Below are positions 48,520-63,907 of a DNA stretch of 64,000 bases, piece by piece (the first letter of the stretch is position 1; each line of letters begins with the position of its first letter). The stretch comes from Xanthobacter sp. YC-JY1 (GTDB lineage Bacteria > Pseudomonadota > Alphaproteobacteria > Rhizobiales > Xanthobacteraceae): positions 3,581,001-3,645,000 of the forward strand of contig NZ_CP032674.1 in assembly GCF_021730305.1 (NCBI RefSeq). The letters are read 5' to 3'. The translations under genes and the position numbers were made by a program. Below the pieces are notes generated by a model, which saw nothing but the letters and a program-made list of their open reading frames with translations, searched no databases and was not told the DNA's origin.

Positions 48520-49518
48520 TCACTTGCGGTCCGCCCCGATCTGCGCGCGGAAGTCCCGCCAGGTGTCGGGGAAGCGCTCGGAGAAGCTGGCGGCCACCGG
48601 CGAGACGGCCTCGCGCCAGGGCTTGAGATCGGTCACGGTGACGATGGCCGCGCCTTTGGCGGCCATGTCCTTGAGGATCGCCGCGTCGTCCGCCTCCATG
48701 CGCCCCCAGCCTTCGGTGATGTTGGTGCGGGCGGCCGCGAGCAGCGCATCGCGATCGGCGGTGGAGAGGCGATCGATCGCGTCCTTCCGCGCCACCAGCA
48801 CGTAGGTGATCATCATCAGCCCCGGCGCGTGGGTGGCCTTGGGGGCGGCCATGCCGAGCTGAGAGGTCCAGGCGCCGGGAGAGGTGAAGACCCCGTCGAG
48901 GGCGCCGCGCTCGAAGGCGGGCTTCATCTCGGGAATGGGCAGCACCACCGGGTCCGCCGAGAGGCGGCGCATGATGTCCTCGTAGGTGCCGGACCCGGCC
49001 ACGCGGATCTTCAGCCCCTTGAGGTCCGCCGGGGTCGCGACGCGCTTGTCGCGGAAGACGAAGAGCTGGTCCGCGCCCCGCATCAGGCCGATCACCCGCA
49101 GGTCCTGCTTCTGGGCGAGCGTGTCGAGGAGGTCCACCACGCCACGGCGCGCGGCTGGCTGGGCCATGGCGGTGTCGTCGAGCGCGAAGGGCAGATTGAT
49201 GAAGCCGAAGCGCGGATCGAGGCGCTCCAGATTGGCCGCATTGACGAAGGTGAGTTCCGCCTTCCCGGCCTTCAACGCCTCGATGGAGGCGAACCCTGGG
49301 TAGATGGTGCCGCCCGGATTGGCGGCGATCGTCAGCCGGCCCGAGGTTGTCTTGGCCACATCCTCCGCCATGGCCGTGAAGTAGGGCACGCGCGGATGAT
49401 TGGCCGGGATGTCGAACACGAGCCTCAGCTCGTCCGCCGTGGCGACGGACGGAAGCGCGGCGAGGGGGGCGAGCGTCATCATCGCCGCCCCGAGAAGGCG
49501 GCCGACAGTCTTGGTCAT
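48520..49518 (-). CDS. TRAP-type solute-binding protein (DctP) without TRAP permease
   Basis: Periplasmic DctP-family protein of 332 residues with a Sec signal ([19 protein letters not shown]). Family features: [22 protein letters not shown], substrate-Arg block [39 protein letters not shown]. No DctQ or DctM gene accompanies it; it lies 59 bases after livM and 11 before the hydratase gene, inside an ABC transporter operon that already encodes its own binding protein. It may deliver substrate to a distant TRAP permease, act as a sensor or scavenger, or work with the ABC permease. Confidence 0.85.
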
Positions 49519-49577
49519 GGGCGTGTTCCTCCGGTGTTGCGCGCGTTGGGGCGCGTCGTTCATCCGCTGGGCGGATT

Positions 49578-50642
49578 TCAATAGGGCAGCGGCCAGCGGC
49601 GCAGGCGATCCTTCGCCTTCACGGCGAGACGGGCGAGGCCGCTCGGCTCGATGATGAGGAAGGCGACGATGAGCGCGCCGAAGATCATCAGCTCCAGATT
49701 GGCCAGGACGTCGGGCTTCAGGGCCTCGCCGAACAGGGTCGCGGCGTTGGCGATGGCCACCGGCAGGAGCACGATGAAGGCCGCCCCGAGGAAGGAGCCG
49801 AGGATGGAGCCGAGGCCGCCGATGATGACCATGAACAGGATCTGGAACGAGCGATGCAGCGAGAAGGCCTCGATCTCCACATTGCCGAGATAGAGGAACG
49901 CCCAGAGCGCGCCGGCCACCCCGCAATAGAAGCCGGAGACTGCGAAGGCGGTGAGCTTGGCGCGGGTGGTGTCGACCCCGGTCAGTTCCGCAGCCGTCTC
50001 GTGGTCGCGCACCGCCATCAGGGCGCGGCCGGCGGAGGAGCGGATGAGGTTCTTCGCCACGAAAGCCAGGGCGACGACCGTCACAAAGGCGACGAGGTAG
50101 CGGGACGGCACGGACGAGAAGCCGAAGCCGAATAAAAAGAGCGTCGGGGTGGAGACGACGCCGGAGGGGGTGTTCAGCACCAGCCACGGAATGTGGGTGC
50201 AGATCCATTCGATGAAGAACTGGGCGGCGAGCGTCGCCACCGCCACGTAGAAGCCGCGGATGCGCAGGCTCAGGAGGCCGAAGGCGAGCCCCACGGCGCC
50301 CGCCACCATCCCCGCCAGCACGAAGGAGACCGGGAACGGCAGCCACGGCAAGCGGATGACGAGGTTCACCGCCGCATAGGCCCCCACCGCCATGAAGGCG
50401 CCCGAGCCCAGCGAGAGCTGGCCGGCATAGCCGGTGAGGATGTTGAGCCCGATCGCCGCGAGCGACAGGATGAGGCATGGCAGGAGGATGGAGCCGAGCC
50501 AGTAGGGCCCGGCCACGAACGGCACCACGAGCGCGCCCACGGCCATGAGGGCCACCACCGCCCAGCGGTCGAGGGCCACGGGGAAGATGGCCTGCTCCTC
50601 GCCATAGGACGTCTTCAGCGCGCCGGCGTCACGGTGGAACAT
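49578..50642 (-). CDS. livM: HAAT ABC transporter permease LivM
   Basis: Inner-membrane permease of 354 residues with the LivM motif [21 protein letters not shown], the ATPase-contact loop [20 protein letters not shown] and [20 protein letters not shown] near the end. It begins three bases after the livH stop, so the two permeases are co-translated. Part of the operon whose LivG is fused to an acyl-CoA-synthetase-like domain. Confidence 0.92.
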
Positions 50643-50645
50643 GGG

Positions 50646-51536
50646 TCAGACCCTCGCGATGCGCGCCGCGCCGAACAGGCCGGCGGGGCGGATGAGCAGG
50701 ACGGCGATGGCGAGTGCGTACGGGAACCAGTTCTCGATGCCGCCGCCGACGAAGGGCCCGAGATAGATCTCGGCGAGCTTCTCGCTGACCCCGATCACCA
50801 GCCCCGCCACGATGGCGCCAGCGATGGAGTTGAACCCACCGAGGATCATCACCGGCAGCGCCTTGAGCGCCACCAGCGTCAGCGCGAACTGCACGCCGAG
50901 CCGCGCGCCCCAGACCAGACCCGCGACAAGCGCAATGAAGCCCGCGGCGCCCCACACCACGGCCCAGATGAAGCCGAGCGGCACGCCCGCCACCTGCGCC
51001 GCCTGGGTGTCGTCGGCCACCGCCCGCAGCGCGCGCCCGACCTTGGTGTAGGAGAAGAAGGCTGACAGCACCGCCACCAGCACCGCGGCCATGGCCGCAG
51101 CGGAGAGGTCGAACTGCGAGATGAGGATGCCGCCGATCTCGATCGGCTCGTCGGAGATGCCGAGGTCGAGCCCGCGCACCTTGGTGCCCCAGATCAATTG
51201 GGCGAAGCCCTCCAGGAAGATGGAGAGGCCAATGGTGGCCATGAACAGGATCATGTGGTCCTGCCCGACGAGGGGGCGCAGCACCGTGCGCTCGATGGCC
51301 ACCGCCAGCGCCAGCATGGCGGCGAGCGCGAGCAGGAAGGCGGCCCACATGGGCAGGCCGAATTCCAGGAAGCCGACGAAGGTGAGCGCGGCGAACAGCA
51401 CCATGGCGCCCTGAGCGAAGTTGAACACGCCCGAGGCCTTGAAGATGAGCACGAAGCCCAAGGCCACCAGCGTGTACATCACGCCGGACAGGAGGCCGCC
51501 CACCACCACTTCGATAAAGAAGGAAAAGTCGCCCAT
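50646..51536 (-). CDS. livH: HAAT ABC transporter permease LivH
   Basis: Inner-membrane permease of 296 residues with LivH blocks GVMYTLVALGFVLIFKASGVFNFAQGAM at the N-terminus (read in two parts around residues 18-46), the ATPase-contact loop GRALRAVADDTQAAQVAGV and LGGFNSIAGAIVAGLVIGV. Shine-Dalgarno GGGAGAA upstream. It follows the fused LivG gene by eleven bases. Confidence 0.92.
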   Translation of the reverse strand: MGDFSFFIEVVVGGLLSGVMYTLVALGFVLIFKASGVFNFAQGAMVLFAALTFVGFLEFGLPMWAAFLLALAAMLALAVAIERTVLRPLVGQDHMILFMATIGLSIFLEGFAQLIWGTKVRGLDLGISDEPIEIGGILISQFDLSAAAMAAVLVAVLSAFFSYTKVGRALRAVADDTQAAQVAGVPLGFIWAVVWGAAGFIALVAGLVWGARLGVQFALTLVALKALPVMILGGFNSIAGAIVAGLVIGVSEKLAEIYLGPFVGGGIENWFPYALAIAVLLIRPAGLFGAARIARV

Positions 51537-51547
51537 GGTATTCTCCC

Positions 51548-53818
51548 TCAGGCGGCTTCGCCGAGGGCGGCGGAGCCGAGATAGGCGGCGATGACTTGGG
51601 GATCGGCACGAACCACATCGGGCGTGCCATCGGCGATCTTGCGGCCGTAATTGAGGACCGCGACGCGATCGGAGAGGCCCATCACCACGCCGATGTCATG
51701 CTCGATGATGAGGATGGTGGTGCCGAAGCTCTCATTGACCCGGCGGATGAAGCCGCACATGTCGCGCTTCTCCTCGTGGGTCATGCCGGCCATGGGCTCG
51801 TCGAGCAGCAGCAGGCGCGGCTCGGTGGCGAGCGCGCGGGCCAGCTCCACCCGCTTCTGGATGCCGTAGGGCAGGCTGGCGACCGGCGCCTGGCGCAGAT
51901 GCTCCAGCTCCAGGAAGGCGAGGATGCGCTCCGCAGCCTCCCGCTCGCGCCGCTCTTCCGCAGACGTGGAAGGCAGGCGCAGCAGCTTGCCAAGCAGCGA
52001 GCCCTCGAAGCGCGCGGCGCGGCCCACCAGAACGTTGTCGATCACGTTCATGCCCTTGAACAGGGAGACGTGCTGGAACGTGCGGCCGATGCCCGAGCGT
52101 GCGGCAAAGGCCGGGCGCATGCGGGCGCGTTCCTTGCCGGCGAAGGTGATGGTTCCCGAGCGCGGGTGGTAGACGCCGTTGATGACGTTCAGCAGCGAGG
52201 TCTTCCCCGCCCCGTTCGGCCCGATGATGGAGAGGATCTCCCCTTCATGGATGGCGAGGGACACGTCGGTGAGCGCCTTCACCCCGCCGAAGGCGACGGC
52301 GACGCCGCTGACCTGCATGAGCACGGATCCGCGCGAGCGGGCTGAGCGCTCGGTCGGCCGTGCCTGCGTCTCGCGGCCGGCCGGGGCGAACGGAGCGTCA
52401 CGCACCTCGCCCTCCAGCGTCAGCTCCTGCGGACCGAAGCCGTCGGCGGCGAGGTCGAAGGTCCGAATGGCTAGAGACGTTCCGGGGAATTCCCCGGCCA
52501 GCCGTGCATTCACCCGCTCCACCGCCGCCGATGCATGGCTCTGGGCCGTCGCGGTGTCCTCCGCGTCCGCGGCGGACGGCGCGAGCGCGATCCGGGCACT
52601 GAGGCCGCCGGGGACGCGCGTGACGCGGGCGCGATCAATGACGGCCTCGCTCCGGAGCGCGGCTTCGACGGACCGGAGCAGATGGGGGTCGTCGGCCGCG
52701 GCGACGGCGTGGGAACGGAGGCTGCCGTCATCGGCGAGGGCAAGATCCGCGTCGAGCGGCACCCCGTAGGACGCGAGGCGGCCGACGGTTGTGGGGTCCA
52801 GAATGCCGGAGGTGACAAAGGCCAGGCGGCAGGCGCCGAGGCCAAGGGTGTTGCGCAGCGGCGCCCCGAAGGCGAGACCCGTGCCCGGCAGCCTCTTCTC
52901 ATTCGCCCGCGCGAGGGCGCGCACCAGCGGCCCGCCCGCGGACAGGCGAACGCCAGCGTCCCTCACCAGAAGCTCGAACACGCGCGCCGGCGCGGCCAGC
53001 ACGGTGGGCGCCACCTCCTTCAGATCGTTGGGGAAACTCGCCGGCCCCTCCACGCAATGGAGGGAGCAGCCCGAGAGAAGCGGTTGCACCAGGCTGCCGG
53101 CGGCGTCGGCTATGCCCGAGGCGGGCAGAAACGCCATGAGCCGGTCGGAGGGAGAAAGCTGCAGGCGGGACATGGCCGCCGCGCCGGCGTCGAGGAGACG
53201 CCGGTGGGTAAGCGCCAGCGGGCGGGGCGGCCCGTCCACGCCGGCAGTGTGGAGAATGAGGGCGGTTCGGCTTCCCTCAACCGTGGCGGTCCGCCAGGCG
53301 TACCAGGCCACGGCCTCGTCCTGGGCGGCCTCCGGCGATGGCGCACATTCGTCGAGACGCAGCGCGATGGCGGGCGAGCGGCTGGCAGTGCGCCACGCGC
53401 GGGCGGCCTCCTCATTCTCGCAGAGGACGAGGGCGGGATCGGCCGCAGGCGAACCGAAGCGGCGCAGGAATTCCGGGCCCACCGGCATCACCGCGGCGCC
53501 GAGGCCCTGCGCGGCAAGGGCTGCGGCGTAGAGCTCCGGCCGGTTCTCGCCGACAGTCATGAGCAGGCCTTCGCCGGTGAAGCCTGCACCATCGAGAAGC
53601 CGGGCCATGGCGGCGGTACGGGCGAGATACTCGGCGAACGTCCAGGTGCGCCAGATGCCGCCCACCTTGTGGCGCAGGGCCGGGTGCGCGGCATGGCGCC
53701 GGGCGGCGGCGATCAGGGCACCGGGCAGCGTGTTTGCGGGGCAAGGATCGGCCCGTTCCGCGGCGCCGGAGGCATGGTCGAAGGCGCGGTTCATGGCAGG
53801 AGGAATCCCTTCGTCCAT
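51548..53818 (-). CDS. Fusion protein: acyl-CoA-synthetase-like (AMP-binding) domain plus LivG ABC ATPase
   Basis: A 756-residue single reading frame. Residues about 30-475 follow the long-chain acyl-CoA synthetase fold (HPALRHKVGGIWRTWTFAEY; late block VNARLAG...ELTLEGEVR). The nucleotide loop, normally YTSGTTGxPKGVxLTH, reads HTAGVDGPPRPLALTH at 190-205, losing the Ser/Thr and Lys, and the YGxTE motif reads YGVPL at 351-355, so adenylation activity is doubtful. After a linker (about 476-498), residues 499-756 are a complete LivG: Walker A GPNGAGKT (533-540), LPYGIQKRVELAR signature, LLLDEPMAGM, IIEHD. Start is ATG without a clear Shine-Dalgarno, seven bases after livF; an ATG eight codons later and an internal ATG at residue 501 are alternatives. 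Separate ligase genes are known between liv genes; the in-frame fusion is unusual. Confidence 0.85.
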   Translation of the reverse strand: MDEGIPPAMNRAFDHASGAAERADPCPANTLPGALIAAARRHAAHPALRHKVGGIWRTWTFAEYLARTAAMARLLDGAGFTGEGLLMTVGENRPELYAAALAAQGLGAAVMPVGPEFLRRFGSPAADPALVLCENEEAARAWRTASRSPAIALRLDECAPSPEAAQDEAVAWYAWRTATVEGSRTALILHTAGVDGPPRPLALTHRRLLDAGAAAMSRLQLSPSDRLMAFLPASGIADAAGSLVQPLLSGCSLHCVEGPASFPNDLKEVAPTVLAAPARVFELLVRDAGVRLSAGGPLVRALARANEKRLPGTGLAFGAPLRNTLGLGACRLAFVTSGILDPTTVGRLASYGVPLDADLALADDGSLRSHAVAAADDPHLLRSVEAALRSEAVIDRARVTRVPGGLSARIALAPSAADAEDTATAQSHASAAVERVNARLAGEFPGTSLAIRTFDLAADGFGPQELTLEGEVRDAPFAPAGRETQARPTERSARSRGSVLMQVSGVAVAFGGVKALTDVSLAIHEGEILSIIGPNGAGKTSLLNVINGVYHPRSGTITFAGKERARMRPAFAARSGIGRTFQHVSLFKGMNVIDNVLVGRAARFEGSLLGKLLRLPSTSAEERREREAAERILAFLELEHLRQAPVASLPYGIQKRVELARALATEPRLLLLDEPMAGMTHEEKRDMCGFIRRVNESFGTTILIIEHDIGVVMGLSDRVAVLNYGRKIADGTPDVVRADPQVIAAYLGSAALGEAA

Positions 53819-53824
53819 GGAGGA

Positions 53825-54628
53825 TCAGGAGAGCCAGCGCGGGCGACGGCGGGCGGCGAGGCTCGCCCCGTCCGCTTCGGCGGAGGCATCGAGCCCGAGA
53901 TAGGAGGCGCGGATCTCGGGATCGGCAGCGAGCGCGCGCGCCGGCCCCTCGCGCACCACTCTTCCGCCCTCCACGAGATAGCCGTAGGTGGCGTAGCGCA
54001 GCGCTACGGCGGCGTTCTGCTCCGCGAGGAGGAAGGTCACCCCGGCTTCGGCATTCAGCTGCTGCATGATGGAGAAGATCTCCTCCACCAGAAGCGGTGC
54101 GAGGCCCATGGAGGGCTCGTCGAGCAGGATCATGTGCGGCCGGGCCATGAGGGCGCGGCCGATGACGCACATCTGCTGCTCGCCGCCGGAGAGGAGGCCG
54201 GCCGGCTGATGCCGCCGCTCCTTCAGGCGGGGAAAGGTGCTGTAGACGCGTTCGAGACTCTCGGCGACCGCGCCGTCGCGGCGGGAATAGGCGCCGACCT
54301 TCAGATTGTCCTCGACCGACAGGGTGGGGAAGGCATGGCGGCCCTCCATCACCAGAGAGAGGCCACGGCGGGCGAGGTCGGACGGGTCGAGCCCGTCGAT
54401 GCGCGCGCCGTCATAGTGGATGGCGCCCTTCGTCACCTCGCCGCGCTCGGATCGCAGCAGGTTGGCGATGGCCTTCATGGTGGTGGTCTTGCCCGCCCCG
54501 TTGGCGCCCAGCAGGGCGACGATGCCGCCCCGGGGAACGCTGAGCGTGAGCCCGCGCAGCACGAGGGCCAGACGGGAATACATCACCTCGATGCCGGCGA
54601 CGGACAGCAAGGGGCCTTGCGCGCTCAT
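53825..54628 (-). CDS. livF: HAAT ABC transporter ATP-binding protein LivF
   Basis: Cytoplasmic ATPase of 267 residues with Walker A GANGAGKT, LLSGGEQQMCVIGRAL signature, MILLDEPSMGLAP Walker B and LLAEQNAAVALRYATYGYLVE. It has a C-terminal tail about 20 residues longer than the other LivF in this window. Start ATG with GGGAGAGG upstream. It is the second gene of the operon, followed seven bases later by the ligase-LivG fusion. Confidence 0.92.
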   Translation of the reverse strand: MSAQGPLLSVAGIEVMYSRLALVLRGLTLSVPRGGIVALLGANGAGKTTTMKAIANLLRSERGEVTKGAIHYDGARIDGLDPSDLARRGLSLVMEGRHAFPTLSVEDNLKVGAYSRRDGAVAESLERVYSTFPRLKERRHQPAGLLSGGEQQMCVIGRALMARPHMILLDEPSMGLAPLLVEEIFSIMQQLNAEAGVTFLLAEQNAAVALRYATYGYLVEGGRVVREGPARALAADPEIRASYLGLDASAEADGASLAARRRPRWLS

Positions 54629-54722
54629 GGCGTGCCTCTCCCAAGGGGTGGCTCCGGCGCCGGGGGCAGAACGCCCCGGCGCGCGGCAGGTCACGGATCA
54701 GGGCAGAACGGGGCCTGCGAGG

Positions 54723-56105
54723 TCAGTTCGTCTCGCCGGCGCAGTCGCGGGGCGTGATGCCCTTTTCCTTGGCGAACTGGGCGGCGGACGCCTCGATGAG
54801 CGGCCGGACCATGGACTGGTCGGACTTGATCCAGTCGGAGATCATCACCCACTTGGCGCCGTCCCATTGCTGGAAGCGGATGGCACCATCGCCCTCGTGG
54901 TCGGCGCAGGTGACCTTGATCTCCGGCATCAGGCCCTCGAGGCCGAGCTGCTTGATGCGCTCGCTGGTCATCACCAGATGCTCGAGCCCCCAGCGCACCT
55001 CGTCACCGGTGAGGGGACGATTGCCGAACTTCTTCATGGCGGTGCGCATGGCTTCCGTCACCGCCACGCCGTGGAGCACGCCACGGACATAATAGACGGA
55101 GCCGATGCGGTTCTCCTCCACATTGCCCTGCCCCTTGGCGTAGACGTACTTCTTGATGTCCTCGAACACCGGATAGTTCGGCCCGGTGGCGTGGAACTGA
55201 GCGGTGATGAAGCCCTTGGCCGCATCGCCCGCCGGCGTTACGTCCTCTTCCGAGCCAGACCACCACCAGCCGATGATGCGGTCGCGGGCGATGCCGGCGC
55301 GGGCGGCTTCCTTGATGCCGGTGGGGGTGGCGGCGCCCCAGCCGCGGAACAGCACCCAGTCCGGCCGATACTGGCGCACCTGAAGCCACACGGCGCGCTG
55401 GTCGAGGCCGGGCGGCGTGATGGGGAAGGTCGTCACCTCGAAGCCATAGCGCTTGGCCTGGGCGTCGAGAATGGCCTGGGTCTCGCGGCCGGCGGCGAAG
55501 TCCATTACCACATTGGCGATCTTCTTGCCCTTCAGCTTCTCCAACCCGCCTTCGCGCTCGGCGATGTAGCGGATGGTTGCGGTGTTCTCGCTCCAGTAAT
55601 TGGAGATGAGCGGGAAGAAATAGGGGAAGACCCGGCCATCGGAGGAATCGGTCCGCCCGTAGCCGATGGTGACGGAGGGGATCTTGTCCGCCGTCATGCG
55701 GTCGATGAGGGCATAGACGCCGCCCGTGCCGGAGGGCGTGAAGGCCGCGGCGCCGGTCGGCCCCTTCGCCTTCTGGCGCTCGTAGCATTCGATCATGCGG
55801 TCGGGCTGGTAGCCGGTCTCGCACTCCTCATAGACGAGCTTCACGCCGTTCACGCCACCATCGCGGGCGTTCACCAGCGCGAGATAGTCCGCATAGGCAC
55901 CGTAGATGCCCGAGCCGCCCGGCGCGTAGGGACCGGTGCGGTAGATGGCGATGGGCACGAACTGCTCCATCGCGGCACCGCCCGTAGCGGCGGGTGCCGC
56001 CGTCTGGGCGGCGGCCGGCACGGCGAAACCGAGCGTCGCGACGAAGGCAAGGAGACAGGCCGGCGCGACGGATTTCCGGCGCCGCGAGCTGAAGCATTGA
56101 GGCAT
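54723..56105 (-). CDS. HAAT ABC transporter periplasmic substrate-binding protein
   Basis: Periplasmic binding protein of 460 residues, Peripla_BP_6 type, larger than amino-acid LivJ/LivK proteins. Signal peptide: basic MPQCFSSRRRKS then hydrophobic ACLLAFVATLGFAVPAAA. Mature blocks: YRTGPYAPGGSGIYGAYADYL, VKLVYEECETGY, CYERQKAKGPTGAAAFTPSG, and FRGWGAATPTGIKEAA. Its size and sequence resemble binding proteins for aromatic or alkyl carboxylates rather than leucine, but that is inference. Start ATG with GGAGGATGA upstream; first gene of the minus-strand operon, divergent from the kinase/acyl-CoA operon. Confidence 0.88.
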   Translation of the reverse strand: MPQCFSSRRRKSVAPACLLAFVATLGFAVPAAAQTAAPAATGGAAMEQFVPIAIYRTGPYAPGGSGIYGAYADYLALVNARDGGVNGVKLVYEECETGYQPDRMIECYERQKAKGPTGAAAFTPSGTGGVYALIDRMTADKIPSVTIGYGRTDSSDGRVFPYFFPLISNYWSENTATIRYIAEREGGLEKLKGKKIANVVMDFAAGRETQAILDAQAKRYGFEVTTFPITPPGLDQRAVWLQVRQYRPDWVLFRGWGAATPTGIKEAARAGIARDRIIGWWWSGSEEDVTPAGDAAKGFITAQFHATGPNYPVFEDIKKYVYAKGQGNVEENRIGSVYYVRGVLHGVAVTEAMRTAMKKFGNRPLTGDEVRWGLEHLVMTSERIKQLGLEGLMPEIKVTCADHEGDGAIRFQQWDGAKWVMISDWIKSDQSMVRPLIEASAAQFAKEKGITPRDCAGETN

Positions 56106-56131
56106 GGCGTCATCCTCCAGGCCGGAATTCT

Positions 56132-56161
56132 GGTCCGGCATCTTTATCTGATGATCGGACC
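56132..56161. promoter_or_regulatory. Inverted GGTCCG/CGGACC half-sites before the transporter operon
   Basis: GGTCCG at 56132-56137 and CGGACC at 56156-56161, 18 bases between, 27 to 56 bases upstream of the binding-protein start. The GTCCG/CGGAC core is the same as in the perfect repeat at 56309-56328. Confidence 0.4.
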
Positions 56162-56308
56162 ATAAATCCAAAATCGCCGCGCCGTCAATCTCCGGATGGA
56201 GGCGGCGAATTTTCCAGTCAATTCATTGATTATCATACAAAATTCCGCCACATCCGCCGCTCACAATGGGTGCCTGACGGAAAATTTCCGCTTGACCCCA
56301 TGATTTCA

Positions 56309-56348: not shown

Positions 56349-57494
56349 ATGGTCGAGGCTGTTCACGTGCTGGAAGGCGAGGGCACCGCAAAGGGGCAAG
56401 TCGGCGCGTCCATGCTGGACCCGGCGCCGCCGGCCGGTGTCGCCCTGCGCAGCGTGGCCGAGAGCCGGGCGCTCGATTGGCCGGCGATCGGTCGTCATCT
56501 GGCTGCCCACGGCATCGGCTTCGATCCCGCCTTCGTGCCCCGTCAATTCACGGGCGGCCTCGCCAACCTGAACTTTCTCGTGCGCGTGTCGGACGGCTGG
56601 GCGGTGCTGCGGCGGCCGCCCGACGGCCCCCTGCCCCCGGGCGCGCACGACATGGCGCGCGAGCACCGCATCCTTTCGAATCTCTGGCGGGAGCTGCCCC
56701 TCGCCCCGCGCAGCCTGCACCTGTGCGCCGACGCCAGCGTCGCCGGCGCGCCGTTCCAGGTGATGGAGTTTCGCCCCGGCATCGCCCTGCGCGGCGACAG
56801 CCTGGCGCCCTTCCCGGCAACCGCCGCCACCGGCGCGGACCTCTCGCACAAGCTGGTCGAGACATTGGCTGCCATCCACGCGGTGGACCCGGCGCGGATC
56901 GACCTGTCCGATCTCGGCCGCCCCGCTGGCTTCTTCGCCCGCACAGCCGCAGGCTGGATCGGCCGCGCCGAGCGGGTGGCGCAGGGCGCGCTCTCCCCGG
57001 CCGCCCGCGCCGTCGCCGGCTGGCTCGCCGCAGCAGAGGTGCGGGACGCGACGGCGCCGACCCTTCTCCATAACGATTTCAAGCTCGACAACGTGCTGCT
57101 GGATCCCGCCACCCGCGCCCCCGTCGCCGTGGTGGACTGGGACATGGGCACCCGTGGCGACCCACTGTTCGACCTCGCGACGCTGCTCAGCTACTGGACC
57201 GAGGCCGGCGACCCGCCGTGCATGCACGAGCTGGCGCAGATGCCCACGGCCCGCCCCGGCTTCCTGACGCGGGCCGAAGCGGCGGATGCCTATGCCCGCG
57301 CCACCGGCCGGGACCTGTCCCAGCTGAAGGTCTACCGCGTGCTCACCATGCTGAAGCTCGGCGTGGTGTTCCACCAGCTCCACGCGCGGCACCTCGCCGG
57401 CGAGACGGCGGACCCGCGCTATGCCGGCTTCGGCACGCTCGCCGAAGCGCTGTTCGATTTCACCCTCGACATCATCAACGACAAGACCTTCTGA
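56349..57494 (+). CDS. APH-family phosphotransferase, acyl-CoA kinase type (LvaA / ACAD10-11 kinase-like)
   Basis: A 381-residue kinase-fold protein with N-terminal lobe ITGGLANLNF-like (FTGGLANLNFLVRVSDGWAVL), catalytic loop HNDFKLDNVLLDP (HxDxxxxN) and metal-binding VVDWDMGTRGDPLFDLATLL. Homologues phosphorylate 4-hydroxyacyl-CoA esters (LvaA in levulinate breakdown, kinase domain of ACAD10/11). Adjacent acyl-CoA dehydrogenase, SDR and acyl-CoA synthetase genes support that role. The first about 45 residues are a non-conserved extension, so a later start is possible. Confidence 0.85.
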   Translation: MVEAVHVLEGEGTAKGQVGASMLDPAPPAGVALRSVAESRALDWPAIGRHLAAHGIGFDPAFVPRQFTGGLANLNFLVRVSDGWAVLRRPPDGPLPPGAHDMAREHRILSNLWRELPLAPRSLHLCADASVAGAPFQVMEFRPGIALRGDSLAPFPATAATGADLSHKLVETLAAIHAVDPARIDLSDLGRPAGFFARTAAGWIGRAERVAQGALSPAARAVAGWLAAAEVRDATAPTLLHNDFKLDNVLLDPATRAPVAVVDWDMGTRGDPLFDLATLLSYWTEAGDPPCMHELAQMPTARPGFLTRAEAADAYARATGRDLSQLKVYRVLTMLKLGVVFHQLHARHLAGETADPRYAGFGTLAEALFDFTLDIINDKTF

Positions 57495-57505
57495 AGGCGA
57501 GGCCC

Positions 57506-58710
<1,205 letters not shown>

Positions 58711-58711
<1 letters not shown>

Positions 58712-59502
58712 TGGGCCTCGCCCTTCCCCTGCCCCATCCCGCGCCCATGCCCGGCCTTGCCGGCAAGATCGTCATCGTCACCGGCGGCGGGCGGGGCCTC
58801 GGCCGCGCCGTAGCGGAGGGCTTTGCCGCCGCCGACGCCCATGTGGTGCTCACCGGCCGCAGCGCCGAGACGCTGGCCGAGGCCGCCGCCGCGATCGCCA
58901 CGCAGGGCGGATCGGCCGAAGGCATCGCTGCCGATGTGGCCAGCGAAACGGACGTCGAGGCGCTGGCCCGCTCCGTGGTGGAGCGCCACGGCCGCATCGA
59001 CGTGCTCGTCAACAATGCCGGCATCAACCCCTGGTACAAGACCGCCGAGGACACGAGCCTCGACGAGTGGCGGCAGGTGGTGGACACCAACCTCACCGGC
59101 GTGTTCCTCGCCGCCCGCGCGGCAGGCCGGGTAATGCTGGCCCAGGGCGAAGGCGCCATCGTCAACATCACCTCGGTCGCCGGCCGGGTGGGACTGGCGC
59201 GCACCACCGCCTATTGCGCCGCCAAGGGCGGGGTGGAGCTGATGACCCGCCAGCTCGCGCTCGAATGGGCGAAGAAGGGCGTGCGGGTGAATGCCGTCGG
59301 CCCCGGCTATTTTGAAACCGAGCTGACCGAAGGCATGCGCCAGAACCCCAAGCTCGCCGAGCGCGTCACCGGCCGCACGCCCATGGGCCGCTTCGGCCAT
59401 CCGCAGGAGCTGGTCGGCGCCTGCCTGTTCCTCGCCTCGCCCGCGGCCTCCTACATCACCGGCGCCTCGCTGGCGGTGGACGGCGGCTGGACCGCCGCCT
59501 GA
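58711..59502 (+). CDS. Short-chain dehydrogenase/reductase
   Basis: NAD(P)-dependent oxidoreductase of 263 residues: cofactor loop TGGGRGLGRAVAEGF, NNAGINPWYK, active site NITSVAGRVGLARTTAYCAAKGG and C-terminal ASLAVDGGWTAA. The ATG overlaps the dehydrogenase stop by one base; a GTG just before it is an alternative. By analogy with LvaD it may interconvert a 4-keto and 4-hydroxyacyl-CoA; that is inference from gene order. Confidence 0.87.
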
Positions 59503-59517
59503 TCCGAAAGACCAGAG

Positions 59518-60732
59518 ATGAACGCCCTGACGCCCACATCCACACCGAGCTCCACCCCCTTGGCCCTCGCCGGCCTCAAGGTGCTGGACCTCACCCGCCT
59601 GCTGCCGGGCGCCTTCTGCTCGCTGATGCTGGCCGACCTCGGGGCCGACGTGCTCAAGATCGAGCAGCCGGAGGGCGGCGACTACAACCGCACCTTCCCG
59701 CCGCTGAACCGGGCGGAATCCGGCTCCTTCCTGCTGCTCAACCGCAACAAGAAGAGCCTGACGCTGAACCTCAAGTCGGAAGAGGGCCGTGCCATCCTCC
59801 TCAAGCTGGTGAAGGATGCGGACGTGCTGCTGGAGGGCTTCCGCCCCGGCGTCATGGACCGCCTCGGCCTCGGCTATGACACGCTGGCCGAGATCAATCC
59901 GCGCCTCGTCTATTGCGCCATCTCCGGTTATGGGCAGGACGGGCCGAGCCGGCTCAAGCCGGGGCACGACCTCAATTACCTCGCCGAAGCCGGCGCGTTG
60001 CAACTGTTCGGCAAGGCGGGCGAAGGCCCCATCGTGCCGGGGCTCTCCATCGCCGATGTGGGCGGCGGCTCGCTCATGGCCTCCACGGGAATCCTCGCCG
60101 CACTGCTGGCGCGGGCGACCACCGGGCGCGGGCAGTTCGTGGACGTGTCCATGCATGACGGCGCCATGTCCTGGCTGTCCCTGCACGGCGCCGATCATCT
60201 CTTCGCCGGCATCGAGCCGAAGGGCGGCGAGCGGCCCTTCATCGGGCAGGCGCCCTGCTACAACGTCTATGCCTGCGCCGACGGGAAGCACGTCGCGCTG
60301 GGCCTTATCGAGACGCATTTCTGGCACCGCTTCTGCGACGCCGTGGGCCTGCCCGCGCTGAAGGACGAGCAGTGGCCGGAGGGCGAGCGGGAAGTGGCGC
60401 AGAAGGCCACCCTCGCCGAGCTGTTCGCCCGCAAGACGCGCGACGAATGGGTAACAGAGCTTGAAGCCGCCGACATTCCCTTCGGCCCGGTCTTTTCCAT
60501 GGAGGAGGCGTTCGCCGATCCCCATGCCCGCCACCGGCAGATGCTGATGTCCATGGAGCATCCGGTGGAGGGCACCATTCCCCAGCTCGGCTTTCCGGTG
60601 AAATATTCCGGGACGCCCTGCACGCTGCGTTCGCCGCCGCCCCTGCTCGGCGAGCACAATGGCGAGGTGCTGGCGGGCCTCGGCTATGCGCCCGAGGAGA
60701 TCGCCGCGCTCAAGGCCAGCCGGGCCATCTGA
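59518..60732 (+). CDS. Class III CoA-transferase (CaiB/BaiF family)
   Basis: A 404-residue CoA-transferase moving CoA between carboxylates through an Asp anhydride. Family blocks: LKVLDLTRLLPGAFCSLMLADLGADVLKIE, NRNKKSLTLNLKSEEG, ISGYGQDGPSRLKPGHDLNYLAEAG (Asp is the catalytic candidate) and the MEHPVEGTIPQLGFPVK end region. It gives the operon a second way to activate the carboxylic acid besides the synthetase. Sixteen bases separate it from the SDR gene. Confidence 0.9.
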   Translation: MNALTPTSTPSSTPLALAGLKVLDLTRLLPGAFCSLMLADLGADVLKIEQPEGGDYNRTFPPLNRAESGSFLLLNRNKKSLTLNLKSEEGRAILLKLVKDADVLLEGFRPGVMDRLGLGYDTLAEINPRLVYCAISGYGQDGPSRLKPGHDLNYLAEAGALQLFGKAGEGPIVPGLSIADVGGGSLMASTGILAALLARATTGRGQFVDVSMHDGAMSWLSLHGADHLFAGIEPKGGERPFIGQAPCYNVYACADGKHVALGLIETHFWHRFCDAVGLPALKDEQWPEGEREVAQKATLAELFARKTRDEWVTELEAADIPFGPVFSMEEAFADPHARHRQMLMSMEHPVEGTIPQLGFPVKYSGTPCTLRSPPPLLGEHNGEVLAGLGYAPEEIAALKASRAI

Positions 60733-60784
60733 GGCACTACGCGCAAGAGAGCACCAAGAGAGCACAATGCTCCGGGAGGAAACC

Positions 60785-62470
60785 ATGGCCCTCAGCCAGA
60801 TGGCGCCGACCAAAATGGCGCCCAACATGACCGACTATGCCGAAACCGTCCGCACCTTCCGATGGCAGGTGCCGGAGACGTTCAATTTCGGCGCCGACGT
60901 GGTGGATCATTTCGCCCGCACCGCGGACGGGCCCGCCCTCATCTGGGCCAATGCGGCGGGCGAGGAACGGCGCTTCTCCTTCTCGGACATGGCACGACTG
61001 ACCAGCCGCTTCGCCTCGGCGCTGGCAGCGCGCGGCATCCGGAAGGGGGACCGGGTGCTGGTCATGCTGCCGCGTATTCCGGAATGGCAGGTGGCCATGG
61101 TGGGCTGCCTCAAGCTCGGGGCGGTGCCCATCCCGTCCATCGAGATGCTCACCCCCAAGGACATCGAATATCGTGTGCGCCATGCCGGCGTGCGGGCCGT
61201 GGTGGCGCGGGCCGAGCACGCACCGAAGTTCGCCAACGTGATGGGAGAGGTCCCGGTGCGCCTCGCGCTGACAGGCCCCCTTGGAGGCGCGCCCGGGTTC
61301 GAGCCGCTGGAAGAGGCGCTGGCCTCCGGCGACGAGGCTTTCGCGCCGGTGACCGTCAGGGCCGACGACCCGGCCGTCCTCTATTACACCTCCGGCTCCA
61401 CCGGCCAGCCGAAGGGGGTGCTCCACGCCTCCCGCGGGCTCTATGCGTGGCGTGGTTCGGCCGTCTGCTGGCTGGATCTTCGTCCCGGCGACACCATCTG
61501 GTGCACGGCCGACACCGGCTGGAGCAAGGCCGGCACCTCCATCCTGTTCGGCCCGTGGAGCTGCGGGACGGCCAGCTTCTTCTACGACGGCCCGTTCGAC
61601 CCCAAGGAGCGCCTGCGGCTGCTGGAGCGCTACGGCATCACCGTCTATTGCGCGCCGGGCACCGAGCTTTTCCGGGTGGTGGATGCCGGCGTCGCCGAGC
61701 ACGACCTCTCGCGCCTGCGCCACACCGTCTCCTCCGGCGAGACGCTCAACCCCGCGGTCGCGGCGCGCTGGCAGACGGCGACAGGCATCCCCATCCTCGA
61801 AGCCTACGGCCAGACCGAGACGCTGATGACGCTGCTCAATTATCCCTGCGTCGCCCCGCGCGAGGGCTCCATGGGCAAGCCCCTGCCGGGCCTCGATCTC
61901 GCCGTTATCGACGGCGCGGGCAACCGCCTGCCGCCCGGCGTTGAGGGCGATATCGCCCTGCTCACCCCCAACCCGCAGATGATGCTCGGTTATCTCGACG
62001 AGCCCGAGCGCACCGCCAGCGCCCATGTGGACGGGCCGGAGGGGCGGTGGTTCGTCACCGGCGACCTCGGAATGGTGGATGCGGACGGCTATTTCTACCA
62101 TCGTGGCCGCAATGACGACGTCATCAATTCTGCCGGCTACCGCATCGGCCCCTCCGAGGTGGAGAACGCCCTGCTCGACCATCCGGCGGTGCAGGAATGC
62201 GCGGCAGTGGCGGCGCCCCACCCGGAGCGCGGCGAGATCGTGAAGGCCTTCGTGGTGCTGCGCGCGGGGCTCACCGGCGACAACGCCCTCGCCAGCGCCT
62301 TGCAGGATCACGTGAAGCGTGTCACCGCTCCCTATAAATATCCCCGCGCCATCGAGTTTCTCGGCGAGCTGCCGAAGACCATGACCGGGAAAGTGCAACG
62401 CAAGGTGCTGCGCGACCTGGAGAAGGCCCGCGCCGCCGAGAGGATGGTTCCTGATGTCGCTCGCGCTTGA
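60785..62470 (+). CDS. Acyl-CoA synthetase (AMP-forming, medium-chain type)
   Basis: Intact adenylate-forming enzyme of 561 residues: P-loop YYTSGSTGQPKG, AYGQTE, RWFVTGDLG, hinge and YRIGPSEVENAL, and catalytic Lys in KTMTGKVQRK. It resembles medium-chain or benzoate/methacrylate-type synthetases. Start ATG with CGGGAGGAAA upstream. In contrast to the fused domain in the divergent operon, every catalytic motif is present, so this is the probable activating enzyme of the pathway. Its end overlaps the GntR gene by 17 bases. Confidence 0.9.
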   Translation: MALSQMAPTKMAPNMTDYAETVRTFRWQVPETFNFGADVVDHFARTADGPALIWANAAGEERRFSFSDMARLTSRFASALAARGIRKGDRVLVMLPRIPEWQVAMVGCLKLGAVPIPSIEMLTPKDIEYRVRHAGVRAVVARAEHAPKFANVMGEVPVRLALTGPLGGAPGFEPLEEALASGDEAFAPVTVRADDPAVLYYTSGSTGQPKGVLHASRGLYAWRGSAVCWLDLRPGDTIWCTADTGWSKAGTSILFGPWSCGTASFFYDGPFDPKERLRLLERYGITVYCAPGTELFRVVDAGVAEHDLSRLRHTVSSGETLNPAVAARWQTATGIPILEAYGQTETLMTLLNYPCVAPREGSMGKPLPGLDLAVIDGAGNRLPPGVEGDIALLTPNPQMMLGYLDEPERTASAHVDGPEGRWFVTGDLGMVDADGYFYHRGRNDDVINSAGYRIGPSEVENALLDHPAVQECAAVAAPHPERGEIVKAFVVLRAGLTGDNALASALQDHVKRVTAPYKYPRAIEFLGELPKTMTGKVQRKVLRDLEKARAAERMVPDVARA

Positions 62471-63191
62471 TCCGGTGCAGGTGGAGCCTGCCTTCCGTCT
62501 CGTCGCCCGCACCATCGAGGACAAGATCCTGGCCGGCGAAATCGCGCCGGGGGATCTGCTGCCCTCAGAGGCGGGGCTGGCCGAGAAGCTGGGCGTGAAC
62601 CGCTCCACCATCCGCGAAGCCATCCGCGTGCTGGAGCAGAACGGCTTCGTCAGGCGCGAGGCGGGGCGGAAGAAGCTCTATGCCTCCATCCCCCAGTCCG
62701 GCGACATTTCCCGTCGGCTCACGGCGGCGATGGTGCTGCATCAGGTGACGTTCGAGGAATTGTGGGAGGCGATGTACGCCATCGAGCCCGCCGCGGCCGC
62801 CTCCGCCGCCCAGCGCAGCGATGCGGCCGACCTTGAAGACCTGGAGCGCAATCTCGAGGAGACGCGCAAGGCGCTGAAGGATTCCACCAGCCTCACCGCC
62901 CTCGACATCGAGTTCCACGATTTGGTCGCCCGCGCCACCCGCAACCGGGCCATCCAGATGGCAAGGCTGCCGATCTCCGAGCTGTTCTATCCGCCCTTCC
63001 TGAAGGTGATGTCGCGCCTCAATGCCGGCGAGCGCCTGCTGGTGGCCCATGAGGCGATCTTCGCGGCGGTCCGCGATCACGACGAGAAGCGCGCGCGGGA
63101 CTGGATGGAGAAGCACATCCTGGACTTCAAGCGCGGCTACGAGCTCGCCAATCTCGACATGGCCACGCCCGTGGATATGCCCGAAAAATGA
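62454..63191 (+). CDS. GntR-family regulator, FadR/FCD subgroup
   Basis: A 245-residue regulator with winged helix (LLPSEAGLAEKLGVNRSTIREAIRVLEQNG, HTH within) and FCD domain (ALDIEFHDLVARATRNRAIQ; HEAIFAAVRDHDEKRARDWMEKHI) with metal-ligand His. FadR-like proteins sense acyl-CoAs or organic acids. It is encoded inside the operon it probably controls, giving feedback; the GTCGGAC-N6-GTCCGAC repeat in the divergent promoter region is the likely site. Overlaps genes on both sides. Confidence 0.88.
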   Translation: MSLALDPVQVEPAFRLVARTIEDKILAGEIAPGDLLPSEAGLAEKLGVNRSTIREAIRVLEQNGFVRREAGRKKLYASIPQSGDISRRLTAAMVLHQVTFEELWEAMYAIEPAAAASAAQRSDAADLEDLERNLEETRKALKDSTSLTALDIEFHDLVARATRNRAIQMARLPISELFYPPFLKVMSRLNAGERLLVAHEAIFAAVRDHDEKRARDWMEKHILDFKRGYELANLDMATPVDMPEK

Positions 63192-63907
63192 GTGCGCCCG
63201 CCCCCTCCCCCGCTTCTGTCACCTCCGGCGTCATCTCCGCCGAGGAGGCCATCCGCTCGCGCCGCTCCATCCGCGCCTTCCTGCCGAAGCCGGTCGGCGA
63301 CGAGACCGTCGCGGCCATACTGGAGCTTGCGGCCCGCGCGCCCTCCGGCACCAACATCCAACCGTGGCAGGTGCTGGTGCTGCGGGGTGAACCGCTCGCG
63401 GCTCTGACGCGTGAACTCCACGCCCTCTCCCTCGCCGGCGATCCCGGCACGGAGGAATTTGCCTATTACCCGCGGCAATGGCGCGAGCCCTATCTCTCCC
63501 GCCGCCGCAAGGTGGGGTGGGATCTCTATGGCACGCTCGGCATCGCCAAGGGTGACACCGAGCGGATGCGCCACCAGCTCGCCCGCAACTTCCTGTTCTT
63601 CGACGCTCCGGTGGGCCTGATCTTCACCATGGACCGGGACATGGAGCGGGGCTCCTGGCTCGACTACGGCATGTTCCTTCAGAACATCATGATCGCCGCG
63701 CGGGCGTTCGGCCTCCACACCTGCCCGCAGGCGGCCTTCAACGCCTATGGCGCGGTCATCGCGCGTCGCCTCGCCATTCCCGACACGCAGATGATCGTCT
63801 GCAGCATGGCGCTCGGCTTCGCCGATCCCGAGGCCCCGGAGAACACCTTCACCACGGTGCGTGAGCCCCTGGAGCGCTTCGCGCGTTTCGTCGACGCCAT
63901 CGCCTGA
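63188..63907 (+). CDS. Nitroreductase family flavoprotein
   Basis: FMN-dependent NAD(P)H oxidoreductase of 239 residues: SRRSIRAFLPKPV and ARAPSGTNIQPWQVLVL at the N-terminus (FMN phosphate and flavin contacts), LFFDAPVGLIFTMDR, MIAARAFGLHTCPQAAFNAY and VCSMALGFADPEAPEN. The family reduces nitro, quinone or enone groups. It overlaps the GntR gene by four bases and ends the operon; its contribution is unclear. The last 93 bases of the window hold no gene. Confidence 0.88.
   Translation: MSAPAPSPASVTSGVISAEEAIRSRRSIRAFLPKPVGDETVAAILELAARAPSGTNIQPWQVLVLRGEPLAALTRELHALSLAGDPGTEEFAYYPRQWREPYLSRRRKVGWDLYGTLGIAKGDTERMRHQLARNFLFFDAPVGLIFTMDRDMERGSWLDYGMFLQNIMIAARAFGLHTCPQAAFNAYGAVIARRLAIPDTQMIVCSMALGFADPEAPENTFTTVREPLERFARFVDAIA

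Follow-up and report, generated by a model that had tools for sequence, protein, structure and literature searches.

A LivG importer ATPase of Xanthobacter joined to a degenerate acyl-CoA-synthetase domain

Some importer ATPases carry an extra cytoplasmic regulatory domain, of which the C2 domain of MetN and ModC are examples in the portion of the source available to us (PMC10710835). Here we describe a gene that places an extra domain on LivG, an ATPase of Liv-type importers: at positions 51548..53818 of the minus strand of a 64,000-nucleotide stretch of the Xanthobacter sp. YC-JY1 genome (contig NZ_CP032674.1, positions 3,581,001 to 3,645,000; hereafter the window), an acyl-CoA-synthetase-like domain and LivG are encoded as one protein. 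The fusion resembles MetN and ModC, as that portion of the source presents them, in having an additional cytoplasmic domain on an importer ATPase; their domains, however, lie C-terminally, have other folds and are known substrate binders, whereas that of the fusion is N-terminal and at most a putative ligand binder. The C-terminal regulatory domain of trans-inhibited importers of the MetNI/ModBC type was accordingly not found. Like LivG of branched-chain-amino-acid-type importers, the fused ATPase is a complete domain with Walker A, Walker B and H-loop, but it is preceded by a domain of ~466 codons and scores under the NCBIfam cut-off for LivG. Full-text literature searches, judged by titles and the beginnings of abstracts and with most subscription journals outside their scope, returned no description of this fusion, nor of the arrangement from which it appears to derive, in which a separate, intact acyl-CoA synthetase gene stands near livG (a liv-linked synthetase, below).

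The earlier note on this DNA had proposed the fusion, and it is borne out by the frame itself, by Pfam and NCBIfam matches, and by its recurrence without stops in 7 of 14 Xanthobacter genomes: a single frame of 756 codons (748 if translation begins at Met9) runs uninterrupted and joins the acyl-CoA-synthetase-like domain to a complete LivG ATPase. Three parts can be delimited on the minus strand: firstly, the degenerate synthetase domain (residues 9-475, 52394..53794), placed by hhalign and Pfam, with confident homology over residues 28-373; secondly, a linker (residues 476-500, 52319..52393) that evolves fast as judged by the ratio of non-synonymous to synonymous substitution rates (dN/dS); thirdly, the LivG domain (residues 501-756, 51551..52318), recognised by Pfam, NCBIfam, its motifs and a solved-structure match. 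Homology places the first of these in the ANL fold, since AMP-binding (PF00501) matches residues 38-365 with 93 bits (cut-off 29.9) and hhalign aligns residues 28-373 with the liv-linked synthetases over 345 columns at a probability of 99.9 and 29% identity. The C-terminal part of the domain (residues 374-475) lies outside that match, and sequence-profile matches of the domain to solved structures are weak (eight distinct sequences, best E 8.6e-10). The LivG part contains GPNGAGKTS, LLLLDEP and IEHD, that is, Walker A, Walker B and the H-loop, together with ABC_tran at residues 516-677 (110.6 bits) and the C-terminal BCA_ABC_TP_C tail at residues 726-750. Its best solved-structure match is 1g6h, named a branched-chain amino acid transport ATP-binding protein. 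Residues 499-749 cover nearly the full span of the NCBIfam LivG model NF008449 (positions 4-254 of 255) with 246 bits, below its curated cut-off of 362; as an equivalog model it covers less than the whole LivG-type group.

The synthetase domain has been stripped of the residues on which adenylation would depend. Three alignments place its former P-loop, HTAGVDGPPRPLALTH (residues 190-205, 53204..53251, minus strand), position by position against YTSGTTGxPKGVxLTH, as the earlier note had it. Where [YF]TSG[TS]TGxPKG would be expected the sequence reads HTAGVDGPPRP, and Ser, TT and Lys are lost in all seven copies of the fusion; Gly193 and Gly196 are kept in all seven, Thr191 in six, and Pro198 is common to all 19 rows of the wider alignment A5. 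Counted by column, 3 of 9 invariant positions of the P-loop region (the Thr and two Gly) survive in at least five of the seven copies, and 0 of 6 do so in the region of YGxTE, a motif expected of a functional synthetase and absent here. The earlier note had read this motif as YGVPL, which proves to be an error of register: by three alignments, YGVPL falls on the xGVNL strand that immediately precedes YGxTE, and no YGxTE follows it in the fused domain. In alignment A5, which has no gap at this point, the column of the YGxTE Glu holds Asp in three and Glu in three of six fused rows, YGxT being lost. TGD occurs in none of the seven copies, its column landing on differing residues in three alignments, and the TGD Asp and hinge Arg of a functional synthetase were not recovered; the hinge Arg is itself unsure, since DRAR (residues 395-398) coincides with the hinge DRAK in two alignments and not in A5. 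The A10 motif LTRTxKxRR reads LTLEGEVRD in the window, with Glu or Asp in the Lys column of all seven copies. If VEAAL corresponds to IENKL as in A5, the stretch from GVNL to IENKL is also ~79 residues shorter than in the synthetase L033. Overall, 16 intact liv-linked synthetases share 161 invariant columns, and all seven fused copies retain 39 of these.

Because Ser, TT and Lys of the P-loop, YGxT, TGD and the A10 Lys are gone in every copy, adenylation is very probably dead. Reduced activity has been reported for mutants of the P-loop Thr, the P-loop Lys and the A10 Lys, in the part of the source at hand (PMC6122825). Since the seven copies share these losses, the losses are older than the divergence of the copies. 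One could argue instead that an unusual active site leaves the domain working as a ligase or adenylyltransferase, given the two Gly, the Pro and the nearly constant Thr left in the P-loop and the acidic residue at the YGxTE Glu in one alignment; since all copies lack TGD, the A10 Lys and, from the P-loop, Ser, TT and Lys, we regard this as very improbable.

The fusion is found at full length and without stops in seven genomes, the six other copies being 70-94% identical to that of the window. The earlier note had named a stop or frameshift between the domains as grounds for abandoning the fusion; there is none, and the seven genomes share the open frame. A scan of genome contigs gave eight loci: five Xanthobacter fusions (aminoxidans, autotrophicus AM3, autotrophicus AM5, oligotrophicus 29k and one metagenome-assembled genome), the remaining three being synthetase matches from other genera that are either fragmentary or unfused. 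That the frame arose through assembly or annotation is a practically negligible alternative, already refuted because seven genomes carry it, five of them named Xanthobacter records of different strains with one metagenome-assembled genome among them.

No fusion was found outside Xanthobacter in the family, order, class, genome-contig, plasmid and viral samples searched. A profile of the fused domain scores 960 bits on the window, but nothing above 129 bits in the other 366 class-sample genomes or above 119 bits in the other 296 of the order sample; none of 50 matching plasmid records covers 80% of the domain, and viral contigs gave no match. A phylum-wide search with a profile of liv-linked synthetases returned 84 matches from 398 genomes, 39 of which were inspected, an 886-codon frame at G579:C8 being left out. 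Among the inspected matches none of the eight loci with the longest open frames is fused with LivG (L070 in G582; L130-L136 in G433, G576, G344, G371, G105, G167 and G187). A 1052-codon frame at G000:C1:1932910 (L128) was set aside as well, as it had been read through a stop; a separate gene of 641 codons lies there.

What these searches did reveal is a widespread arrangement, pointed to by the fusion, in which a Liv importer has its own acyl-CoA synthetase beside livG. In the family sample of 198 genomes, 13 match the domain at 1e-20; five of these are the fusion, and of the eight unfused matches seven lie beside livG, the contig of the eighth ending first. Strong relatives occur in 70 of the 398 phylum genomes. 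In the 30 best-scoring of the 84 phylum loci (L056-L085; chosen by score, not at random), a separate synthetase lies near livG in every case, the P-loop, YGxTE and TGD patterns are intact in all 30, and the strict A10 pattern is present in 21 and without a match in nine; in L081 livG starts ~0.5 kb after the synthetase. Outside these 30, six loci of the order sample (L086-L091) have LivG within the examined stretch in three cases. The best NCBIfam match of liv-linked synthetases is FadD11 (NF038343), below its cut-off. They share with the fused domain a homologous N-terminal part, the same neighbours and a common grouping in the tree, and differ from it in being separate genes with intact motifs, the fused domain being shorter and motif-less. 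Xanthobacter itself has an intact liv-linked gene in two genomes without the fusion (G145, on a 316-kb contig, and G160) and in one with it (G200).

A tree of 41 synthetases sets the liv-linked group apart from 11 others with 100/99 support, and within that group the seven fused domains make up a single clade. Since many Proteobacteria have an intact relative next to livG as a gene of its own, the fused domain is most simply read as an old neighbour of livG, decayed and now attached to it, rather than as a sensor brought in from outside. The tree of LivG sequences is less straightforward. The fused LivG, 54-63% identical to the LivG of the 30 synthetase-linked loci, forms one clade (100/100) in a group otherwise made up of synthetase-linked LivG, and its sister is the LivG of nine operons (97/95; L118-L126) in which a synthetase was looked for and none detected; the tool warns that long branches meet at this join. 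LivH of the nine operons is 62-67% identical to that of the window and tends to be closer than LivH of synthetase-linked operons, and LivK shows no clear preference (up to 52% in the nine operons versus 54% in the synthetase-linked operon of G160). These data suggest that the history of the operon may be mosaic. The nine operons presumably belong to a sulfone-monooxygenase-like system, a label that we take from the sequence start. We also considered a burst of change followed by a standstill and dropped it, the stem-to-crown ratios of the synthetase and LivG parts being similar in the two trees.

We then compared the selection acting on the parts of the gene. Over seven pairs of copies, dN/dS is 0.20-0.38 for the synthetase domain, with bootstrap upper limits of 0.29-0.52, and 0.01-0.20 for LivG; for the linker it is 0.24-1.41 in the six pairs where it could be computed, the G174-G130 value being left out for lack of any synonymous change. 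By medians over pairs, the linker (20 pairs) stands at 0.85, the domain at 0.31 in one of its two parts and 0.40 in the other, and LivG at 0.09, and seven neighbouring genes lie at 0.03-0.29. Because intact liv-linked synthetases evolve like their LivG (0.07-0.13 versus 0.06-0.12, four pairs), the fused domain is relaxed; it is short of neutral all the same, and under purifying selection. Within the domain, conservation peaks in a 40-codon bin (residues ~248-287, dN/dS ~0.18) directly after the segment that aligns with AWxGDH of active relatives and has been rewritten in the fusion. The earlier note had supposed that adenylation was lost and that fold or ligand binding was kept: its first half very probably stands, the catalytic motifs being lost in all seven copies, and its second, so far as it concerns the fold, is in keeping with the recognisable N-terminal part and the purifying selection.

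The length of the domain is likewise steady: 466 codons in six copies and 469 in the other, at synonymous divergences of up to 0.8-0.95. Its 1398 nucleotides contain no gap in any of seven pairs from six genomes; G198, three codons longer, was left out of this count, and the divergent alignments are rough. The pair G000-G200, for instance, has 321 substitutions and no gap in the domain, and four gaps with 71 substitutions in 162 nucleotides of neighbouring intergenic sequence. Gaps between the genes for LivK and the APH-type kinase number 0, 0, 1, 1, 1, 4 and 4 in the same pairs.

Because the domain is constrained and its length steady, we lean towards its having been kept as a non-catalytic structural or regulatory part of the importer, rather than as a tolerated relic. 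A relic of this kind, which we consider distinctly less probable, would be a synthetase made redundant by that of the divergent operon (described below) and now decaying; it would survive only because a domain translated before LivG has to avoid misfolding. Such decay would agree with the lost motifs, the net shortening, the co-inheritance of another synthetase with the fusion and a dN/dS that is above that of intact relatives and, by medians, 3-4 times that of LivG. A relic fits less well with bootstrap limits well below 1 in seven pairs or with so constant a length at such synonymous divergence; furthermore, no orthologous LivG without the domain was seen, since the best LivG of each of six non-carriers compared is at most 58% identical to the fused one.

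Several observations weigh against a retained role, beginning with the elevated dN/dS just given. The purifying selection may reflect no more than the need for any domain attached to LivG to fold without harming it. As a neutral control the linker is weak, having only 25 codons and a bootstrap interval that overlaps that of the domain in five of six pairs; the gap-free alignments carry the limits stated above, and intergenic gaps are zero in two of the seven pairs too. At the YGxTE Glu position an acidic residue may have survived, as A5 has it. In the synthetase tree the stem of the fused clade is very long, and the tool warned of long branches and, for all seven fused rows, of an odd residue make-up. 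Finally, an AlphaFold model of the full fusion from nine sequences was too poor for use (mean predicted local distance difference test score 49.8, predicted template modelling score 0.35), and no pocket for a ligand could be demonstrated.

From these comparisons a course of events can be proposed. In an ancestor of some Xanthobacter species, an acyl-CoA synthetase of the livG-adjoining kind would have been joined to livG, losing its catalytic machinery and keeping its N-terminal scaffold. The pseudo-synthetase would hang by the ~25-residue linker from LivG, not LivF, of a Liv-type importer and serve that importer by stabilising the LivF/LivG pair, by docking a partner or by sensing an acyl ligand; the imported acid would most likely be activated by the intact synthetase of the divergent operon. 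LivG pairs with LivF in Liv importers, and we therefore propose one pseudo-synthetase per importer, on a flexible linker. What the sequences show is the fusion, the kinship with liv-linked synthetases, the loss of motifs, the purifying selection and the joint inheritance with the divergent synthetase; we infer a loss of activity in vitro, a role in transport and a division of labour with the other synthetase. More tentatively, and with rather low expectation, the pseudo-synthetase might set the ATPase rate by binding the intact synthetase, the carboxylate that is imported or the corresponding acyl-CoA; if this is true, uptake would follow the state of the activation step, and a retired enzyme would have turned regulator. 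The position at the channel exit, the gating and the metabolite channelling that the earlier note had put forward are likewise conjectural. The fusion is a natural case of an enzyme, of a kind whose gene otherwise adjoins that of an importer ATPase, taken into the chain of that ATPase, with its chemistry lost and its constraint kept. A single genus holds the fusion, species that lack it and separate, active relatives next to livG, so that the step from partner enzyme to transporter domain is testable by swaps.

The true start is probably Met9 (53794; codon 53792..53794, minus strand), because the Shine-Dalgarno-like GAAGGGA before it (53806..53812, minus strand) is identical in all seven copies and Met1 is missing in G198, whose match starts at residue 3; the Met9 ATG is kept in all seven. 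The long frame might nevertheless have no role as a fusion, if most LivG arose on its own, through proteolysis or through translation from an internal start near Met501. Both Met501 and the Val-Leu ahead of it are indeed kept in all seven copies despite the variable linker, and GGGAAAGG or GGGAAGGG, both Shine-Dalgarno-like, stands just upstream of it in three; four copies, the window among them, lack such a stretch, and we dropped the notion of an internal ribosome site on that count. Selection at the protein level on the upstream domain argues further that it is translated in frame, and we judge separate production of LivG improbable.

Around the fusion, the genes run in the order LivK, LivF, fusion, LivH, LivM, DctP-type binding protein and enoyl-CoA hydratase. 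The fused ATPase is hence encoded with LivF, LivH, LivM and a binding protein, as expected of the LivG type. All on the minus strand, these are the LivK-type periplasmic binding protein (54723..56171, PF13458), the other ATPase of the importer, LivF (53825..54694; best NCBIfam match NF008626 at 198 bits, below the cut-off of 441), and the permeases LivH (50646..51536) and LivM (49578..50642), both recognised by Pfam and NCBIfam. In other carriers this order is conserved within the examined stretches, except for the DctP gene, absent in G094.

A divergent catabolic operon on the plus strand (56349..63907) encodes an APH-type kinase, an acyl-CoA dehydrogenase, a short-chain dehydrogenase/reductase, a CaiB-type CoA-transferase, a synthetase, a GntR regulator and a nitroreductase. 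The earlier note's mention of an intact synthetase here is confirmed: the gene at 60659-62470 (plus strand) has both AMP-binding and AMP-binding_C and is co-inherited with the fusion. Close orthologs (E up to 1e-150) are present in 6 of the 14 genus genomes, all six of them fusion carriers, that is, in 6 of 7 carriers and 0 of 7 non-carriers; the assembly of the remaining carrier is 88% complete and its fusion contig 5.7 kb long. In the synthetase tree it stands on another family branch than the fused domain. With its APH-type kinase, acyl-CoA dehydrogenase and synthetase, the operon resembles the lva route of 4-hydroxyacid catabolism, in which these are the kinase LvaA, the dehydrogenase LvaC and the synthetase LvaE, with ACAD10/11 in animals, according to the part of the source available (PMC11342911); the likeness is one of gene content and based on description. 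At 56349-58711 (plus strand) the kinase gene adjoins that of the acyl-CoA dehydrogenase, a pair known from 4-hydroxyacid catabolism.

Two further observations concern neighbouring or related genes. The DctP-type solute-binding protein of the TRAP family (48520-49557, minus strand) follows livM within an operon for an ABC importer; its gene is also present in G200, G174 and G130 and out of reach in G113 and G198. A second family of liv-linked synthetases (L127 and L133-L136) is encoded after livG and before livH, and L127 lies in the window's own genome. We considered this family as a further degenerate one and did not count it as dead, because its P-loop, TTSGTT[SA]xPKLAM, is merely variant and its other motifs are intact.

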